IMG/VR virus record: IMGVR_UViG_3300022916_000072
Span: 1-27,574 of that record
Reading direction: 5' to 3' (one strand)
DNA length: 27,574 nucleotides
From: a virus
The notes below the pieces were generated by a model that saw only the letters and a list, made by a program, of their open reading frames with translations, was not told the origin of the DNA and did not search any database. Shown in pieces: positions 4 to 25,590 of the stretch (position 1 is its first letter; the number at the start of each line of letters is the position of its first letter). The position numbers were made by a program, and so were the translations under genes.

Positions 4-222
4 GTGACCGGTAGAATCACGCGCAAAGTGGATGCAAAATTAGTACAAGAACTTGCAGCAGAAAATGGGCTGTCAGACCATCTATCTTATTTATTAAAGT
101 GGACGCCCACTATTGATATGAAAGCATGGATGAATAGCTCAGAAGAGATAACCGGCCCGCTTTTAGATGCAGTGACATCTAAGCCAGGCAGACCCTCATT
201 TAAAATAACCAAGGAAATATAA
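4..222 (+). CDS. Hypothetical protein, possibly cut at its 5' end
   Basis: A 72-aa open frame if started at the GTG at position 4. No ribosome-binding site can be seen because the window begins three bases earlier, and the frame is open to the edge, so the true start may lie outside. The C-terminus is basic (TSKPGRPSFKITKEI). I do not recognise the family. Its TAA stop shares one base with the ATG of the DUF669-like gene (TAATG), so it is probably the upstream member of the same replication/recombination operon. Confidence 0.55.
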   Translation: MTGRITRKVDAKLVQELAAENGLSDHLSYLLKWTPTIDMKAWMNSSEEITGPLLDAVTSKPGRPSFKITKEI

Positions 223-686
223 TGTCATTCTTAGAAATAGAAATTAACTTAGACGAACTGCCTGTTGAAACGAATAACTTTGAGCCTCTGCCTGTCGGAT
301 GGTATACAGCCCATATCTCCGGTGCAGAAGTACGTCAGACAAAAGCAGGGACAGGCGAATACATCGCTATTAAGTACGAAATCACCGGCCCATCACATCA
401 AGGACGGACTGTTTTTGGTAATCTAAATATCAAGAACCCTAATCCGAAAGCAGAAGAAATAGGCCGGCAGCAACTAGGTAATGTCATGCGCGCCATTGGA
501 TTAACTAAAGTAAGCGATACTGACCAGCTTATCGGAGGCGATTTATCTATTAAATTAAAACTTAATCCTGGCACAGACCAGTATGCGCCATCAAACGATG
601 TTAATGGCTTTAAAGCTATTGCAGGTTCGATGCCGGTATTACCTAAAGCTGCAACAGCAGAAGCACCACCGTGGGCAAATGGCTAA
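222..686 (+). CDS. DUF669 family phage protein, possible ssDNA-binding role
   Basis: This 154-aa protein has the layout of the DUF669 phage family: a hydrophobic LPVGWYTAHI strand near residue 25, then the signatures TKAGTGEY, GRTVFGNLNIKNPNPKAEEIGRQQ and a PSNDVNGFK segment near the end. DUF669 proteins usually sit next to phage helicase and nuclease genes. They are often suggested to act as single-strand-binding or recombination accessory proteins, but the biochemical role is not firmly established. The C-terminus, APPWANG, resembles an acidic/aromatic SSB tail only loosely. An AAGGA ribosome-binding site lies about 7 nt before the ATG, which overlaps the previous stop by one base. Family confidence is high and functional confidence low. 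Confidence 0.8.
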   Translation: MSFLEIEINLDELPVETNNFEPLPVGWYTAHISGAEVRQTKAGTGEYIAIKYEITGPSHQGRTVFGNLNIKNPNPKAEEIGRQQLGNVMRAIGLTKVSDTDQLIGGDLSIKLKLNPGTDQYAPSNDVNGFKAIAGSMPVLPKAATAEAPPWANG

Positions 687-699
687 GTAAGGAAGTTGT

Positions 700-734
700 G
701 TGAGGGGGGGAAATCCCCTCACCTTTATTATTTT
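700..734 (+). terminator. Hairpin followed by T-rich tract between two early genes
   Basis: Perfect 8-bp inverted repeat: gtgagggg at 700-707 and cccctcac at 715-722 enclose a 7-nt loop, and the T-rich run ctttattatttt follows (723-734). It sits just after the DUF669-like stop and before the nuclease start, so it looks like a Rho-independent or attenuating terminator on the + strand. The T tract is interrupted, so termination may be partial. The hairpin also argues that the nuclease starts downstream at 745 rather than at an in-frame GTG at 700. Confidence 0.55.
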
Positions 735-744
735 GGGGCATGAT

Positions 745-1761
745 ATGAAAATACCAGAGATGGATAATAGCGTTGAAGCTTCTATTGACGCAGCACACGA
801 AGCAAGAAAAGAAAAACCTAGACCCCATATGGGTGTTTCAGGACTGGGGCATAATTGCGAGCGATACTTATGGCTTGGCTTTCGCTGGGCGGTACAGGAG
901 CAGTTCCCAGGCAGGATACTAAGACTGTTCAGGCGTGGTCATAACGAAGAAAAAACGATTGTTTCTGACTTAAGAGCGATGGGTGTGCATATAGATAACA
1001 CCACATCTAACCAGATGAGAGTTGACTTCGGTTTCCACGTTTCAGGTAGTATGGACGGGGTTATTTCTTTCGGTGTACCGGGGGCAATGAATACCAAGCA
1101 CATACTAGAAGCAAAGACACACGCGCTGAAATCTTTTAACGATGTACTCAAAGACGGGGTACAGAAATCTAAACCGCTGCATTATGTTCAAATGCAGGTA
1201 TATATGTTGGGTGCTGAAGTAGATAGAGCATTATATTATGCAGTCTGCAAGAATGATGATCGTATCTATACTGAACGGATAAAATTAGACAAAGAATTTG
1301 CACAGAAATATATAGATCGTGGACATAGAATTGTTGGTCTGGATAGGATGCCCGAGCCTTTAAGTTCAGACCCTAGCTGGTATGAGTGCAAGTTCTGTTC
1401 CGCTCATGAGTTTTGTCACAAAACCAAAACAACAAAGCATGTTAATTGTAGAACCTGCGCTCATTCAACGCCAATGCAGGATAGTACTTGGCGGTGCGAG
1501 CTGCATAAAGTAGATAAAATTCCTGTTGATTACCAGCATACCGGCTGTGATTCACATGTGCTACATCCTGATCTTGTCCCGTACCAGAGAAAAGACGGGA
1601 CTGATAGCAGTGCTATTTATGTGATTGAAGGGGCTGATGTCATTAATGGCGAGGCAGGATACAGGTCCTCAGAGATACTAGCGAACCCACATTATTGCGC
1701 TCACCCCGAGGATGGATTTGAAGAATTGAGGGAAACATTTAAGGGAAAGGTGGCGGGATGA
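745..1761 (+). CDS. Cas4/RecB-like PD-(D/E)XK nuclease with Fe-S cysteine pattern
   Basis: I start this gene at ATG 745 (338 aa), because the longer GTG frame begins inside a terminator-like hairpin and a GGGG ribosome-binding site lies before 745. PD-(D/E)XK hallmarks are GHNEE near residue 65, the GSMDG aspartate (D104), the E122-A-K124 catalytic strand and HYVQMQVYM near residue 150. C38 together with C215, C218 and C224 reproduces the Cas4/AddB spacing (one N-terminal Cys, then C-x2-C-x5-C) that normally binds a 4Fe-4S cluster. A further set, C235, C238, C251 and C268, may bind zinc. The likely role is a DNA end-processing exonuclease in phage replication or recombination. Its stop overlaps the helicase start by ATGA, so the two are probably translated together. 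It is not a CRISPR component; no cas genes or arrays are nearby. Confidence 0.8.
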   Translation: MKIPEMDNSVEASIDAAHEARKEKPRPHMGVSGLGHNCERYLWLGFRWAVQEQFPGRILRLFRRGHNEEKTIVSDLRAMGVHIDNTTSNQMRVDFGFHVSGSMDGVISFGVPGAMNTKHILEAKTHALKSFNDVLKDGVQKSKPLHYVQMQVYMLGAEVDRALYYAVCKNDDRIYTERIKLDKEFAQKYIDRGHRIVGLDRMPEPLSSDPSWYECKFCSAHEFCHKTKTTKHVNCRTCAHSTPMQDSTWRCELHKVDKIPVDYQHTGCDSHVLHPDLVPYQRKDGTDSSAIYVIEGADVINGEAGYRSSEILANPHYCAHPEDGFEELRETFKGKVAG

Positions 1762-3356
1762 AATTAAGAGAGTATCAACAGCGCGCTATTGATGATTTAT
1801 ATAAATGGTTCGGTGCGGGAAATGAAGGGAATCCCTGCTTGGTGTTACCTACGGGATCAGGCAAAAGCCATATAGTTGCCGCTCTATGTAATGATGCACT
1901 CCATAGCTGGCCTGAAACCCGTGTATTAATGTTGACCCATGTAAAGGAATTAATATCTCAAAATGCAGAGAAAATGAGGGAGCACTGGCCAGGTGCGCCC
2001 TTGGGGATTTACTCAGCTAGTCTCAAAAAGAAGCAGCTCGGAGAGCCTATCACTTTTGCAGGCATTCAATCTGTTAGAAATAAAGCAGAACAGATAGGGC
2101 ATATTGATCTGGTTATTATTGATGAGTGCCACCTTGTCAGCCATAAGAATGAAGGGGGATACAGGGCGTTATTAAATGATTTACTCGCTATCAATCCATC
2201 ATTGAGAGTTATTGGGCTGACTGCTACACCTTTTAGACTGGGGCATGGATTGATTACAGATAAACCCGCTTTATTTGATGCCTTGATTGATCCTGTCAGC
2301 ATTGAACAGTTGATATTTAAAGGGTTTTTATCAACGCTGAGATCAAAGACAACAAGTACCAAGCTCGATACAAGTCAGGTTCATAAAAGAGGCGGTGAGT
2401 TTATAGAGTCTGAACTTCATGCGGCAGTTGATAATGACCAGACTAATAACGAGGTGGTGCAGGAAGTGATTAGACTTGCACAGACAAGAAAAGCTTGGTT
2501 GTTTTTCTGCTCTGGGGTGGACCATGCCCGACATATAAGAGATATATTGATTGATAATGGCGTTATTGCTGAGTGTATTACTGGAGAGACAAAGCAGAAA
2601 GAAAGAGCGCAAATCATTGAGGATTTTAAAACAGGTAAGATACAAGCGTTAACGAATGCAAATGTTTTAACGACAGGCTTTGATTACCCAGATATAGACC
2701 TTATCGCTATGCTCAGGCCAACAATGTCAGCTAGCCTGTATGTTCAGATGGCAGGCAGGGGAATGCGCCCTAAATCGCACACAGACCATTGCCTAGTTCT
2801 GGACTTTGCCGGTGTGGTTGAAACGCATGGGCCGATAACTAATATCAGGCCGCCGAACAAGAAAGGTGAAGGTACGGGCGAAGCACCGGTAAAAATATGT
2901 GAGAATTGCGGAGAGATTGTACATTTATCTGCGCGTGTTTGTCCAAACTGTTTGCAGGGATTCCCAGAGCCAGAAGCACCCGGACTAAACCTGAGAAATG
3001 ATGATATCATGGGGATAGAAGGTACAGAGATAGAGGTCACCAGTTGGACATGGAGGAAGCATATATCAAAAGCATCCGGCAAGGAAATGCTGGCAGTCAC
3101 TTATTATGGTGTGCTATCTGACGAACCTGTCACTGAGTATCTATGCGTTACCCATGATGGTTATGCCGGATCAAAAGCGAGGCAATTACTTCAAGAAATT
3201 TCTTTTAAATCTGGCACGTATAACGATAGTGATTTTTCATCACTTGATTATATTGCAATAGGCTTGCAAGAATCAGGACAACATCCATCATCAATAGAAT
3301 ATAGGAAAGATGGCCGGTTTAACAGGGTATTAACTAGGAGTTGGAGCGATGTATAA
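1758..3356 (+). CDS. DEAD/DEAH-box superfamily 2 helicase
   Basis: A 532-aa SF2 helicase. Motif I is PTGSGKS (residues 31-37), motif II is DECH (122-125), motif III is TATP (155-158) and motif VI is QMAGRGMRP (330-338). After the second RecA-like domain comes a four-cysteine zinc ribbon (C381, C384, C395, C398), then about 130 residues of unassigned C-terminus. It should be an ATP-dependent DNA (or R-loop) unwinding or remodelling enzyme used in phage replication or recombination. It follows the Cas4-like nuclease with a 4-nt ATGA overlap and precedes a VRR-NUC gene, a common phage replication neighbourhood. The precise substrate cannot be told from sequence. Confidence 0.9.
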   Translation: MKLREYQQRAIDDLYKWFGAGNEGNPCLVLPTGSGKSHIVAALCNDALHSWPETRVLMLTHVKELISQNAEKMREHWPGAPLGIYSASLKKKQLGEPITFAGIQSVRNKAEQIGHIDLVIIDECHLVSHKNEGGYRALLNDLLAINPSLRVIGLTATPFRLGHGLITDKPALFDALIDPVSIEQLIFKGFLSTLRSKTTSTKLDTSQVHKRGGEFIESELHAAVDNDQTNNEVVQEVIRLAQTRKAWLFFCSGVDHARHIRDILIDNGVIAECITGETKQKERAQIIEDFKTGKIQALTNANVLTTGFDYPDIDLIAMLRPTMSASLYVQMAGRGMRPKSHTDHCLVLDFAGVVETHGPITNIRPPNKKGEGTGEAPVKICENCGEIVHLSARVCPNCLQGFPEPEAPGLNLRNDDIMGIEGTEIEVTSWTWRKHISKASGKEMLAVTYYGVLSDEPVTEYLCVTHDGYAGSKARQLLQEISFKSGTYNDSDFSSLDYIAIGLQESGQHPSSIEYRKDGRFNRVLTRSWSDV

Positions 3357-3540
3357 AGAACCAGATTTTGTCACCAAATATTGGGATTCACTATCAGTAC
3401 GGATGCCTAAGTGCTGTCATACCTGTTCTTATTTCGACAAGGATGATTCATTCTGTACGCATTTTAAATCCACACCACCCGAAGAATTTGCAGCAACGGT
3501 GAATTCTTGCCCGAGATATTTTAATGAAATACCATTTTAG
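3349..3540 (+). CDS. Small cysteine-rich (zinc-finger-like) protein
   Basis: A 63-aa protein that begins 8 nt inside the helicase gene, with AGGAG placed 8 nt before the ATG. Cysteines at CCHTC, SFCTH and NSCPRYF could form one zinc-binding knuckle. The type resembles small phage proteins encoded between helicase and nuclease genes, but I cannot assign a family or function. Tight overlap and a good ribosome-binding site support it as a real gene. Confidence 0.7.
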   Translation: MYKEPDFVTKYWDSLSVRMPKCCHTCSYFDKDDSFCTHFKSTPPEEFAATVNSCPRYFNEIPF

Positions 3541-3548
3541 GAGAAATT

Positions 3549-3899
3549 ATGATAAAAAAACCAGAGAGAATACCCACTGAATCGTGGGAACAAGCGATGT
3601 TTGTCCAATGGTTCAGACGCGCTCATCCAGGGGTTTTAATCCATTCCATACCCAATGGAGGAAAACGGAGTAAATCAACGGCTATGGCATTAAAAGTGGA
3701 AGGCACAGTGAAAGGCATCCCTGATCTGTTTATACCTGAGTGGAGAGTTTGGGTTGAGATGAAAAGAACAAAAGGTGGATCACTATCACCAGATCAGAAA
3801 ACAATCGTCTCTTATTTAAAAAATGTGGGTTATACAGTCCTGGTCTGCAAAGGTTTTGAAGCAGCAAAAGAACAAATATTATCATTAAATAAAAAATAG
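3549..3899 (+). CDS. VRR-NUC domain nuclease
   Basis: A 116-aa protein matching the VRR-NUC family (stand-alone virus-type replication/repair nuclease). It shows an N-terminal glutamate in ESWEQ (E14), PNGG (35-38), KGIPDLF with the catalytic Asp (55-61), the VEMKR strand with E70 and K72, and SPDQ near residue 82. This arrangement is a PD-(D/E)XK fold that acts on branched or flap DNA; phage members often act as Holliday-junction resolvase-like enzymes. AGGAG lies 7 nt upstream. It closes the recombination block, and a promoter begins directly after its stop. Confidence 0.88.
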   Translation: MIKKPERIPTESWEQAMFVQWFRRAHPGVLIHSIPNGGKRSKSTAMALKVEGTVKGIPDLFIPEWRVWVEMKRTKGGSLSPDQKTIVSYLKNVGYTVLVCKGFEAAKEQILSLNKK

Positions 3900-22193: not shown

Positions 22194-22499
22194 TTAATTT
22201 AGGATGCTCTCGACTTCTGCCGCATTGGAATACCCTAGGCGATATAGCTCACCATTCGGGTCTTCCATGAATTCGTACTGATACCGCTCTGACACTACAT
22301 CGCTCTCATCTGTAAGCTCTTCTACTTTGTGAGTAGCATCAGTAATGCCTACATCTCCGTCAGCAAGCTTAGAGGTCATTAGCCATTGGTCTTTAGTATC
22401 TAAGACTATCTGTAGGTAGGCTTTAGTTTCAACAGGATATTCAGCCATCAGGTTAGTAATGTCTTGCTTGTTATTAATTGTGTTTGGGAAGTTTCTCAT
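22194..22499 (-). CDS. Hypothetical acidic phage protein coupled to the DGR reverse transcriptase
   Basis: A 101-aa acidic protein whose ATG overlaps the RT stop (ATGA), so it is translationally coupled to the RT. The sequence (MRNFPNTINNKQDITNLMAE near the start, YQYEFMEDPNGELYRLGYS near the end) recalls a small uncharacterised phage family often found next to tail-fibre genes. It is unlike Avd, the basic four-helix DGR accessory protein: it is acidic and lacks long amphipathic helices. A tail-fibre-associated role is as likely as any DGR role. Confidence 0.7.
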   Translation of the reverse strand: MRNFPNTINNKQDITNLMAEYPVETKAYLQIVLDTKDQWLMTSKLADGDVGITDATHKVEELTDESDVVSERYQYEFMEDPNGELYRLGYSNAAEVESILN

Positions 22500-23503
22500 G
22501 CTATTAAAGCCTCTTTAAGTTTGTTTAAATTTAAACTGGTTTTTAGATTGTAGGTACTAGCCCATTTTATCCAGCCTTCTGTTGAAGCAATGGATGACCT
22601 ATATTGCTCTAGTGATATTTTACCTTTGTTGAGCAGCTCTGGCAGTGCCTTTAATCTCTTAGCCACTCGTTTAGCTGTACTTTTACGCAGCAGTATTTTA
22701 CCGGGGAAGTGTCGGTATCCCAAGAAGTCTACCCCTTGAACCACTGGGGATATTGACCATCTTGAAAACTTAAGCTGTAACTTCTCCATTAAAAACAGTT
22801 CAATACTTTTCTTTAGTTGATGTAGCTCTGCTTTGTTGTCTGAGAAGATAACAAAGTCATCACAGTATCTAATAAGGGTTTTCTCTTTATATTTATGCTT
22901 AAGTTCCATATCTAGCTCATTCATATAGAGATTGCCAAACCACTGTGAGGTATAGTTGCCTATAGGTGTATTTTTATCACCCTCAAAGGAGCGAATAATG
23001 TTTTCTAATAACACTAAGGTAGGTTTACACTTAATCTTCTTTTCAACAATACGCATTAAAATAGTATGGTCGATTGAAGGGTAGAATTTACTAATATCAC
23101 ACTTCAGGCAATACTTATACTTCCTGACTTGGTTCATTGTCTTTCTACTAGCTTCGTGCATTCCTTTACCTTCTCTGCAAGCATAAGAGTCATACATCAT
23201 TAAGCCATCCCATATCGGAGCAACAACCTGAAGCAAAGCATGCTGAATGATTCGATCAGGGTAAAAAGGTAGGATATATATCTCTCGCTTCTTAGGCTCA
23301 TGTATCGTCTTAGAGTGATACTCTGAGGTACTGAATTCTCCTGTACAGAGTAGTTTCTGAAGGCTTAGTAAGTTACCTTCAATATCTTCCTCAAAACTAA
23401 GTATGCCCTTCTGTTGTGCTTTGCCCTTACGGGCTTTACGATAAGCCTTATATAGGTTCTCTGGGTCGGTTATCCTATCCCAGAGGTTGCCATGTCGCTT
23501 CAT
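22496..23503 (-). CDS. DGR reverse transcriptase, 335 aa
   Basis: A 335-aa retron/group II-like RT. The catalytic residues are D136 in KCDISKFYPSIDH and the YCDD box (213-216). IGNYTSQWFGN (181-191) carries the SQ pair that marks DGR RTs in place of the QG found in group II intron RTs. The thumb-side basic region includes GVDFLGYRHFPGKI. No maturase or endonuclease domain is attached. It should reverse-transcribe TR RNA with adenine-specific errors. AGGAG lies 7 nt before the ATG, and the ATG overlaps the end of the open frame through the TR (ATGA). Length is in the usual range for DGR RTs. Confidence 0.96.
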   Translation of the reverse strand: MKRHGNLWDRITDPENLYKAYRKARKGKAQQKGILSFEEDIEGNLLSLQKLLCTGEFSTSEYHSKTIHEPKKREIYILPFYPDRIIQHALLQVVAPIWDGLMMYDSYACREGKGMHEASRKTMNQVRKYKYCLKCDISKFYPSIDHTILMRIVEKKIKCKPTLVLLENIIRSFEGDKNTPIGNYTSQWFGNLYMNELDMELKHKYKEKTLIRYCDDFVIFSDNKAELHQLKKSIELFLMEKLQLKFSRWSISPVVQGVDFLGYRHFPGKILLRKSTAKRVAKRLKALPELLNKGKISLEQYRSSIASTEGWIKWASTYNLKTSLNLNKLKEALIA

Positions 23504-23795
23504 AATGAATCTCCTACAAGGACGTTCGGTTTCCCTACTAGGCCAAGAGGAGCGGCCGCTGTGTATTTTGCTATCAACTTTTTACAGTATCGTAACAGGG
23601 TGAAGAAGTCAGCCAACAGACCGTTTAGCCCCGCAACAAGGAGTATATGTTTATTGTCTGCTGTAGCCGTACAGGCACGAGTGGAATTGTTCGAATTCAG
23701 ATTGAGTGGAGAATTATTCCATTTCGAATAGCGTGAACTGCATTTAACACTATTATTCCAATTACCACCTAGTTTCGCACGATACCTCTTCACCT
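23504..23795 (-). ncRNA. Predicted DGR template RNA: TR plus downstream spacer
   Basis: The template transcript is expected to include the TR (23784-23667) and the spacer to the RT start (23666-23504, 163 nt). In BPP-1 the comparable spacer of about 140 nt is needed for cDNA priming. The spacer holds a 10-bp palindrome, agcggccgct at 23551-23560, and a GC-rich patch around it. The ends of the RNA cannot be read from sequence, and no separate promoter is clear, so it may be cut from the operon message. This is the only stretch of about 300 nt in the window without an accepted protein gene. Confidence 0.7.
23667..23784 (-). repeat. DGR template repeat (TR)
   Basis: A 118-nt repeat aligned without gaps to VR (23839-23956) at an offset of 172 nt. 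On the coding strand it has 36 adenines, of which 25 are changed in VR; the other 82 bases are all identical. It is rich in AAT/AAC codons (nine Asn when read in the VR frame), as expected of a DGR template tuned for diversity. Three Lys codons are AAA. Past 23667 the match fails at non-adenine positions, and past 23784 it ends abruptly. Confidence 0.97.
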
Positions 23796-23813
23796 TATTC
23801 ATCGTAATGAATA
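23796..23813 (-). other. DGR hairpin/cruciform between VR and TR
   Basis: A perfect 7-bp inverted repeat, tattcat (23796-23802) and atgaata (23807-23813), with a 4-nt loop (TACG on the coding strand). It starts 3 nt beyond the last base of the variable gene's stop codon and ends 11 nt before TR. In several phage DGRs a hairpin or cruciform of about 8 bp with a 4-nt loop lies just after VR and raises retrohoming efficiency; size and place match. A chance origin is unlikely but not excluded. Confidence 0.8.
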
Positions 23814-23815
23814 CT

Positions 23816-25027
23816 TTATAATCTATTAGAAGCAGGCTCCGCACAGGCACGAGCGGAAAAGTCCGAACTCAGATAGAGAGGAGAAAAAATCCAGAACGAA
23901 AAGCGCGAACCGCAGTAAACACCATCATTCCAAGTACCACCCAGTCCCGCACGATAAGGAGCATTATAATGCTGTCCTGCTACTCCAGAGTCATTAGCAT
24001 CAAAGGCATTTGCCCAAGATGCGCCAGAACTGTAAACACCACCAGTATCTCTTGACCACTGATATAATGCCCCAGCCATATCTTCACAACCAATATCTGA
24101 AATTATCCTACGTCCAGCAGTATCCGAGTGGCCTCCTGTTGTTACGGGGTCTGCTGACCCTGAGATGTTAGTTCCTTGATTAGAACCAATACTTGCTGTC
24201 ACAAACTCAACTTGACTAATTAGCTTCTGCTTAATATCCCCAAACCACTGCTCAAACTTATATCCGTGCCAGCCATTACTACCGTCAGCTATAGTTCCAC
24301 CATAGACCGATTTAAGAAGCGTGCCTACATAACTAGGTAAGTAAATACCAATCCAGTTACCATCGTTGCTTAATGTCATGCCTTCGGGAGCAGAGTTAGG
24401 TCTATTAAATCTATCCCATACTGAACGCGGGAGAATATCACCTGTCAGATAGCCAGTTAAAGCGTGTCCCGATATAGTCCCTACCGATACGCATAGACAA
24501 TGAAACCCCGCTATCTTACGAGAGTTTGTTGTAGTGTACCCCGTTGGAAATGTTGAGTTATTACTAAGAATAACACCACCCGCTTCAAGTAGATAAACAT
24601 AGAAATCTTTACCCGCTCTATTCGCTGCTGTAGCGTATGTAGCCGCGTCCCAATTGCCTGCGGTATTAATGTCTTTAGTAGTAGCCGCTACTTCAACTAA
24701 TGTACCATTCACCATCCCCCCAAGATCAGGGACGGTGAGCGTGTTAGTTGCTGCACTAAACAGAGTGCCTTGATCTAAGAACGTTGAGGATGTGAATCCT
24801 GAGGAGGGTAGGTTAGTTAAGCCTGAAGCATCACCCGTAGGAGATAATACAGTAACACCAATATCAGCATCTTTAAGTATAGTTGCATCAGCAGGTTCTT
24901 TAGTAGCAATAGCCGTATCTGTCTCTGTCTTTGTGTATGTTGTTGCTTGAAGCGCAGCACCCGCAGCAGCAAAGTCAAACGCCCCACCTGCGCTATTTAA
25001 TAATGTATTTACTTTAATTGTACTCAT
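23816..25027 (-). CDS. DGR variable protein: tail-fibre tip with C-type-lectin-like domain
   Basis: A 403-aa protein, the target of the DGR. Residues 1-110 are fibre-like (TYTKTETDTAIATKEPADAT, then GDASGLTNLPSSG). Residues 190-403 form a C-type-lectin/formylglycine-enzyme-like fold of the Mtd kind: WFGDIKQKL, SDIGCEDMAGALYQWSRD, SGASWANAF, and the terminal GGTWNDGVYCGSR followed by SARACAEPASNRL. The VR covers residues 358-396. Sixteen residues there differ from the template (361, 365, 368, 369, 371, 373, 376, 378, 380, 381, 385, 387, 389, 390, 392, 396), most being aromatic or small in VR. It should bind the host receptor. AAGGA lies 5 nt before the ATG. Confidence 0.95.
   Translation of the reverse strand: MSTIKVNTLLNSAGGAFDFAAAGAALQATTYTKTETDTAIATKEPADATILKDADIGVTVLSPTGDASGLTNLPSSGFTSSTFLDQGTLFSAATNTLTVPDLGGMVNGTLVEVAATTKDINTAGNWDAATYATAANRAGKDFYVYLLEAGGVILSNNSTFPTGYTTTNSRKIAGFHCLCVSVGTISGHALTGYLTGDILPRSVWDRFNRPNSAPEGMTLSNDGNWIGIYLPSYVGTLLKSVYGGTIADGSNGWHGYKFEQWFGDIKQKLISQVEFVTASIGSNQGTNISGSADPVTTGGHSDTAGRRIISDIGCEDMAGALYQWSRDTGGVYSSGASWANAFDANDSGVAGQHYNAPYRAGLGGTWNDGVYCGSRFSFWIFSPLYLSSDFSARACAEPASNRL
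23839..23956 (-). repeat. DGR variable repeat (VR) with candidate IMH end
   Basis: The 118-nt 3' coding block of the fibre gene that matches TR. Changes include Asn-to-Phe, Asn-to-Tyr, Asn-to-Asp, Lys-to-Phe and Lys-to-Tyr; three of the 19 altered codons are silent. The invariant frame (GG, W, C, SR, W, SP, RAC) is the structural scaffold. The last 13 nt (23839-23851) are G/C-rich and differ from TR at one adenine. Beyond them TR and VR part at non-adenine bases, as expected for the initiation-of-mutagenic-homing (IMH) end. The IMH probably covers about 23826-23851. Confidence 0.96.
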
Positions 25028-25035
25028 ATATATCC

Positions 25036-25590
25036 TTAAACTATTGTCCAGCTACTGCCGGAGGGGACTGATACAACTATACCAGAATTAATTGTTAGTG
25101 GGCCGCCTGATACGGCATTGTTACCTGCTGTTATCGAGTAGTTAGCACTAATTGTATTGTTATTTTCATACAGTGCTTTAGTTGTGGTGTTAGCATCTGT
25201 GTCTAGTGTTGCCCAGGAGGCATTAGTCGCATCGGTTGTTAAGAACTTTCCTGCATTACCTGTTTGCAGAGGAAGCGCATCAACATTATCAATGGCTGTC
25301 TGCGTTGCGGTACTCACAGGCTTATTAATATCGCTTGTGTTATCTGCGTTCGCTAGGCCTACCATTGCTTTAGAAACACCCGACACAGTACCAGTGAAAG
25401 TGGGACTAGCCAACGTAGCTAAATCACCACGCGGGACAATAATATTAACATTACCCGTCCCGTCTTCTGCTGCTAGAGTGACTGTTCCGTTCAGAGTGTT
25501 CAACGCTAGCTCATTAGACAGTAATGCGTCTACGCTGGATAGCTCTTCAGTCTGCCCGCTTGATAATACTAATGGCCTGCGCTGTGACAT
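25036..25590 (-). CDS. Tail fibre/collar-like protein, 184 aa
   Basis: A 184-aa protein with the phage tail-fibre repeat pattern: LATLASPTFTGTVSGVSKAMVGLAN, followed by NTSDINKPVSTATQTAID. These are typical of fibre shafts (trimeric). The C-terminal 60 residues are beta-rich with Asn/Gly turns. AAGGA lies 6 nt before the ATG. It directly precedes the DGR variable protein and may form the shaft or base that carries it. Confidence 0.78.
   Translation of the reverse strand: MSQRRPLVLSSGQTEELSSVDALLSNELALNTLNGTVTLAAEDGTGNVNIIVPRGDLATLASPTFTGTVSGVSKAMVGLANADNTSDINKPVSTATQTAIDNVDALPLQTGNAGKFLTTDATNASWATLDTDANTTTKALYENNNTISANYSITAGNNAVSGGPLTINSGIVVSVPSGSSWTIV

Follow-up and report, generated by a model that had tools for sequence, protein, structure and literature searches.

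The stretch of DNA analysed here (IMG/VR virus record IMGVR_UViG_3300022916_000072, a linear 27.6-kb virus fragment; 27,574 nt, hereafter the window) carries what is almost certainly a phage diversity-generating retroelement (DGR), directed at the receptor-binding tip of a tail fibre. The fibre gene, a variable repeat (VR) at its 3' end, a hairpin, a template repeat (TR) and a reverse transcriptase (RT) gene lie in a single minus-strand cassette, in which the open reading frame coordinates of the RT and fibre genes were confirmed. Across the clade to which this RT belongs, and in crAss-like relatives, the template adenines are of two kinds: one is randomised, whereas adenines followed by G or C and preceded by C (C[A]G, C[A]C) appear in the VR almost always as G. 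Our judgement is evenly balanced on whether this pattern represents a recoding rule of the RT that operates without the accessory protein Avd and goes with a smaller amino acid (Cys or Ala in place of Met) in the YXDD active site.

A phage DGR with an Mtd-type target

The TR (23667..23784, minus strand; 118 nt with 36 adenines) and the VR (23839..23956, minus strand; 118 nt, giving 39 complete codons followed by EPASNRL-stop) align without gaps and are separated by 54 nt. They differ at 25 positions, every one of which is a TR adenine (11 changed to G, 11 to T and 3 to C), and the non-adenine positions are identical throughout (82/82). Were 25 differences placed at random over the 118 sites, the chance that all would fall on the 36 adenines is 2e-17. 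An independent repeat finder recovered the same two copies, and our recount reproduces exactly the repeat coordinates and adenine-only differences given in the first-pass annotation of this DNA. The 3'-most A>G difference, at VR position 23842, is probably a fixed mismatch between the initiation of mutagenic homing sites (IMH/IMH*) rather than a mutagenesis event, because the VRs of the relatives that were read also carry G there.

The RT gene (22496..23503, minus strand; 335 amino acids) lies on the same strand as the TR, which does not form a gene of its own and sits 163 nt upstream of it. The protein matches PHROG 1423 with an E value of 6e-117, and its best match in the PDB is the DGR RT of Bordetella phage BPP-1 (8ub7; E = 5e-63), the next being a group II RT (1e-21). 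Motif 4 reads PIGNYTSQ, of which IGNYTSQ fits the pattern (I/V/L)GxxxSQ, and the active site is YCDD, a motif that is invariant in 15/15 aligned RTs of the window clade (an apparent D or N at the YXDD residue in some of these proteins, from a regular-expression count, was an artefact of an SRFDDD stretch). In a maximum-likelihood tree the window RT falls in a 100/99 clade inside the DGR RTs, the placement that the first-pass annotation had proposed as a check, and three group II RTs are set apart from the DGR RTs with 100/100 support, albeit on long branches. Identity as a group II intron, retron or DRT/Abi (defence-associated or abortive-infection) RT was ruled out by scores below the curated family cut-offs: group_II_RT_mat gave 130.9 bits against a cut-off of 300, and the retron and DRT models scored far under their own.

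The target gene (23816..25027, minus strand; 403 amino acids) encodes an Mtd-type tail-fibre receptor-binding protein with the VR at its C terminus. It matches Pfam mtd_2nd (4e-16), PHROG 11262 (tail protein) and, by sequence, the PDB entry 2iou for Mtd (Mtd-P1; 1e-17). An AlphaFold2 model built with 31 relatives reached a mean predicted local distance difference test score (pLDDT) of 78.6, a fold from 4 sequences having been set aside at a pLDDT of 29.8. This model superposes on the five Mtd structures 1yu0-1yu4 with a Z score of ~31 over 293-296 residues (VIA-align), and the VR corresponds to residues 358-396, within the C-terminal C-type-lectin part. By these matches the fibre protein is homologous to Mtd. 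The TR/VR statistics, the RT family, the RT tree and the fold of the target all back the first-pass view of a phage DGR directed at the tip of a tail fibre.

Diversification among near-identical relatives

Natural VR variation, a further check that the first-pass annotation had called for, is found in close relatives of the window whose TRs are identical and whose flanks are ~99.9% identical but whose VRs are different. Between contigs L007 and L008, the flanks differ at 1/1517 and 0/482 positions and the TRs at none, and 10/10 VR differences lie at template adenines. The corresponding counts are 15/15 for L017 and L018, 16/17 for L017 and L019, and 18/18 for L037 and L040, the last pair having divergent upstream flanks. 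For the three pairs in which every VR difference lies at an adenine, the binomial probabilities are 2e-5 to 7e-10. Judged from these comparisons, the DGR type of the window is active, because the VR differences between near-identical relatives are bound to adenines while the TRs are identical.

For the window's own phage, contig L003 has the same VR. A second contig, L002, is 100% identical over 7,360 nt and starts inside the VR, where its first 6 nt show 4 differences, 4/4 of them at template adenines; because these lie at a contig end the evidence is weak, and diversification in this very phage is suggestive only. The VR zone holds 9/34 contig ends versus 1.7 expected, the kind of excess that hypervariable sites would produce by interrupting assembly. 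Contigs that start or stop in the VR or at its edge include L002 (positions 1-6) and the ends of L009, L010, L011 and L021.

Template adenines in C[A]G and C[A]C contexts are read as G

We scored the VR base opposite each TR adenine, grouping the C[A]G and C[A]C contexts as CAS and excluding the last 25 nt from the counts because of the fixed A>G at the 3' edge. In the window RT clade (68 TR/VR pairs), CAS adenines are represented by G in 175/185 cases (135/140 at C[A]G and 40/45 at C[A]C), and adenines in other contexts by G in 376/1491. Fourfold-synonymous CAS sites of the same clade are G in 51/56. Identical code applied to the BPP-1 clade returned G at 10/38 CAS sites (5/11 at C[A]G and 5/27 at C[A]C; Fisher 4e-19 versus the window clade). 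When one value is taken per TR family, the mean G fraction in the window clade is 0.92 at CAS sites versus 0.27 elsewhere, and BPP-1 stands at 0.26 (family-level Fisher 0.002 for window clade versus BPP-1). A similar pattern is seen in the set of crAss-like cr55 phages, in which CAG is read as G in 90/90 cases, including 34/34 at synonymous sites. The first-pass annotation had implied uniform randomness at all 36 adenines, a picture that is not supported for a clade in which nearly every CAS adenine reads as G.

Groups that share a TR but have different VRs bear on how this arises. Here 26/27 CAS sites are G throughout while 141/206 other adenines vary, and therefore copying passes over the CAS sites. 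The TRs also differ in composition, CAS and CGS standing at 184:273 and 113:110 in the two clades that show the rule and at 38:279 and 23:210 in the others; an excess of CAS over CGS in the rule clades is expected if G-to-A changes at CGS are silent there. The variable residue of YXDD is Cys or Ala in the rule clades and Met, rarely Val, in the others, so that a link between the active-site residue and the context rule, drawn from sequences of four clades, offers a lead only. A literature search returned no report of a C[A]G/C[A]C rule; most subscription papers lay outside that search and novelty is provisional.

A cassette with no recognisable Avd

The first-pass annotation had called the cassette complete. 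By the BPP-1 definition it is not, as no Avd was found, a negative that covers the 27.6-kb fragment and may not extend to the whole phage. We searched with the Avd profiles PF22296, phrog_3206 and NF033474, using BPP-1, VP58.5 and Ideonella as positive controls. All three detect the BPP-1 Avd, and NF033474 also detects that of VP58.5 and, twice, Avd in Ideonella (PF05635 was silent even in the controls and hence uninformative). None of the three found an Avd in the window, in the complete 60-kb genome of vir525 or in the other clade contigs searched, and NF033474 found none in the complete 98-kb cr55_1 genome. The spacing of the repeats differs too: VR-to-TR offsets are 143-256 nt in the window clade (57 unique pairs found with the clade RT alignment) versus 522-585 nt in most BPP-1-type loci, and in BPP-1 the avd gene occupies the space between VR and TR. 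Avd is described as essential, and as encoded by most but not all DGRs (PMC10053308), so its absence is a variant and not a contradiction. From these sequence searches, the window-clade RT and its spacer RNA probably work without Avd or with an unrecognised partner.

Other loci vary in this respect. In the cr55-like set (L209-L288), VR-to-TR offsets are mainly 161-355 and 534-615 nt, with three near 1 kb, and no Avd was recognisable with the BPP-1 sequence in the long-offset loci. On an Ideonella dechloratans plasmid (L334, 2382-4406), a DGR-type RT lies between two Avd genes, the downstream one overlapping the RT stop.

A structured spacer RNA and a weak hairpin

The 163-nt region between TR and RT (23504..23666, minus strand) is, on the evidence of its covariation, a conserved structured RNA. 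Among 33 relatives, 17/21 pairs changed on both sides, with 170 compensatory cells versus 57.8 in shuffles, and sliding the partner strand destroys the signal. A helix pairing 23663-23656 with 23621-23614 (CAGCAGAC with GTCTGTTG) links the 3' edge of the TR to the spacer, and a terminal hairpin lies at ~23552-23511. Such a helix fits, by analogy, the BPP-1 model, in which recruitment of the RT complex and priming of cDNA synthesis are both roles of the spacer (PMC12875486). An Rfam scan of the window matched no family.

Between VR and TR, directly after the fibre stop codon and 25 nt past the VR, lies a perfect 7-bp hairpin (23796..23813, minus strand; TATTCAT-TACG-ATGAATA), which is reached by 1.75% of shuffles. 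Stems of at least 6 bp occur in 26% of clade loci versus 4% of shuffles; the figure for the BPP-1 clade is 79%.

Alternative explanations

The first-pass annotation read the repeats as a DGR signature and set this against ordinary duplication drift. An old tandem duplication or a dead DGR, its differences due to drift, now has a negligible probability, and for the clade it is already refuted by the adenine-only VR differences between near-identical genomes. A decayed sister does exist: in L005 (the same contig as L013; 4986-5680), TR and VR are kept and the first ~218 amino acids of the RT are lost, and it looks like a recently dead DGR. Yet there 3/27 TR/VR differences lie off adenines, as expected of DGR decay and unlike the window, where 25/25 are at adenines, the RT is intact and near-identical relatives differ in the VR only. 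That Avd or an equivalent is encoded outside the record or supplied in trans is a possibility of some substance, albeit an unlikely one. The record is a fragment, and the Ideonella plasmid DGR has its second Avd gene right after the RT, a position that in the window is taken by a gene for a 101-amino-acid protein. That protein, however, matches no Avd model and occurs without an RT nearby, two findings by which it was ruled out as an Avd substitute, and the complete vir525 and cr55_1 genomes and other clade contigs are silent for NF033474, which is positive in BPP-1, VP58.5 and Ideonella.

The source of the G at CAS sites can likewise be placed elsewhere than in the RT. The strongest competitor, although we consider it improbable, is that the VR retains its own G, the adenine being faithfully copied as T and the resulting G:T mismatch repaired towards the VR. 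Retention would account for G at synonymous sites, and CAS sites would match the context of deaminated-CpG mismatches; on the other hand, it requires faithful copying at CAS only and a bias of G:T repair in the hosts of both crAss-like phages and a Methanosarcinales virus, and it sits poorly with the A kept at CAG in 4/140 and with T or C at some CAC sites. Protein-level selection for G (a conserved CGSR, Gly and Arg positions) is less probable again: many CAS sites are indeed non-synonymous and give Gly or Arg at conserved spots, but the fourfold-synonymous CAS sites are also G, and outside the VR the NCN codons do not favour G in third place (A 1867, G 1730, T 1646, C 2195). Least probable of the three, and only marginally credible, is A-to-I editing, by which CAS adenines of the template RNA would become inosine and be read as G; this would suit a change that is near-deterministic and motif-bound, but the cassette genes examined include no recognisable deaminase, and the idea calls for a single enzyme at work across widely differing hosts. 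A rule residing in the RT is the likeliest cause of the pattern, unproven as it is, and takes about half of our confidence.

Several points weigh against the overall account of a DGR with no Avd and a context rule. In the cr55 clade the rule is less strict at C[A]C (16/25) than at C[A]G, and the VP58.5 clade is intermediate, with a family mean of 0.64 and CAG at 2/4, like BPP-1. The comparison with BPP-1 rests on few CAS sites (38 from 6 TR families), and the rule is seen in surviving VRs only and not in cDNA. The window's own CAS sites (TGCAGT, TTCACG, CTCCACTC, TTCCACTC) are G in 3/4 and T in one. An Avd may be encoded by the host or by phage DNA beyond the 27.6-kb record, or may have diverged past the reach of the profiles. 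The hairpin is a weak one, with a TACG loop that departs from the GRNA consensus of BPP-1. For this exact phage population, the evidence of variation is a single contig end.

Proposed mechanism

By analogy with BPP-1, from which the copying and homing steps are taken, the TR and downstream spacer would be transcribed into a structured template RNA, the RT would copy the TR and misincorporate opposite adenines, and the Mtd-type fibre gene would receive the cDNA in place of the VR at its 3' end, altering the receptor-binding face. In the clade, adenines in contexts of the AAY, GAA and TAA type are randomised and CAS adenines yield G about 95% of the time, which suggests that the RT inserts dC almost deterministically at these sites. 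If so, G-to-A changes at CGS in the TR would be neutral, fitting the excess of CAS over CGS.

Neighbouring genes and related records

Upstream of the fibre gene, a tail-fibre gene (25036..25590, minus strand; PHROG 35419 tail fiber protein, 5e-15) encodes the probable carrier of the Mtd-like tip. At the other end of the cassette, the 101-amino-acid gene (22194..22499, minus strand) overlaps the RT stop by 4 nt. It is kept across the clade, and homologues also turn up in loci that lack a detected RT (e.g. L034, L041 and L052); it is probably a tail-module gene and not part of the DGR. Four loci (L034, L041, L042 and L052) have Mtd-like fibre genes and this small downstream gene, with no RT detected in the fetched locus, the DGR possibly having been lost or never gained.

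On the opposite strand, a replication and recombination module (222-3899, plus strand) encodes an SSB-like protein, a Cas4-domain exonuclease and a RadD-like helicase, together with one further protein that has weak Holliday-junction-resolvase matches. A near-identity search among phage records gave no match to the window, and a search of genome contigs with the window RT, aimed at hosts, gave no relative. A TR-tolerant DNA pattern run against viral contigs matched only two, both already known.

Comparison with known systems

The DGR of the window is of a known type, a further phage DGR among tens of thousands. The added interest lies in the clade, which combines the lack of a recognisable Avd, a protein that proved essential in BPP-1, with a near-deterministic context rule. 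If the rule is true, the repertoires predicted for the receptor-binding tips of many phages would have to be corrected, and a comparison of YCDD and YADD with YMDD enzymes would tie RT structure to error spectrum. Substitutions in DGRs were described in a 2012 survey as 'essentially random', with a strong enzymatic bias argued against (PMC3521204). A 2026 study of the BPP-1 RT in E. coli reported context effects, among them more frequent misincorporation of G (A to C) at NAC (PMC12875486), a profile that differs from the A-to-G pattern in the window clade; our literature search found no systematic context study beyond it. Roux et al. 2021 (PMC8144416) reported >30,000 DGRs as broadly active, and the metagenomic phage DGRs described in the text searched resemble the window in having tail-protein targets and, for C-type-lectin targets, a C-terminal VR; neither a per-context analysis of template adenines nor Avd content was found in that searched portion of the paper.

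Among individual systems, the closest in plan is the BPP-1 DGR (mtd-avd-TR-brt), which shares with the window an Mtd-type target with a C-terminal C-type-lectin VR, the order target-VR-TR-RT, adenine-only mutagenesis, an RT with xGxxxSQ and a spacer RNA between TR and RT. It differs in having avd between VR and TR, where the window has 54 nt without avd, in its YMDD rather than YCDD active site, and in an 8-bp hairpin with a GRNA loop as opposed to the window's weaker 7-bp stem with TACG; in the BPP-1 clade, moreover, CAS adenines are read as G in 26% of cases versus about 95% in the window clade. Caudoviricetes sp. vir525 (BK063673, Methanosarcinales) has the same order of tail protein (PHROG 11262), TR, RT (PHROG 1423) and small downstream gene, its RT is 56% identical, and its complete 60-kb record likewise yielded no Avd; it differs in the domain of its host, as annotated, and in that its own TR and VR lack a full-length gapless alignment. 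The crAss-like phage cr55_1 and its relatives have an RT that is ~43% identical with a YADD active site, yet many of their cassettes similarly leave no room for avd and their CAG adenines are likewise read as G.

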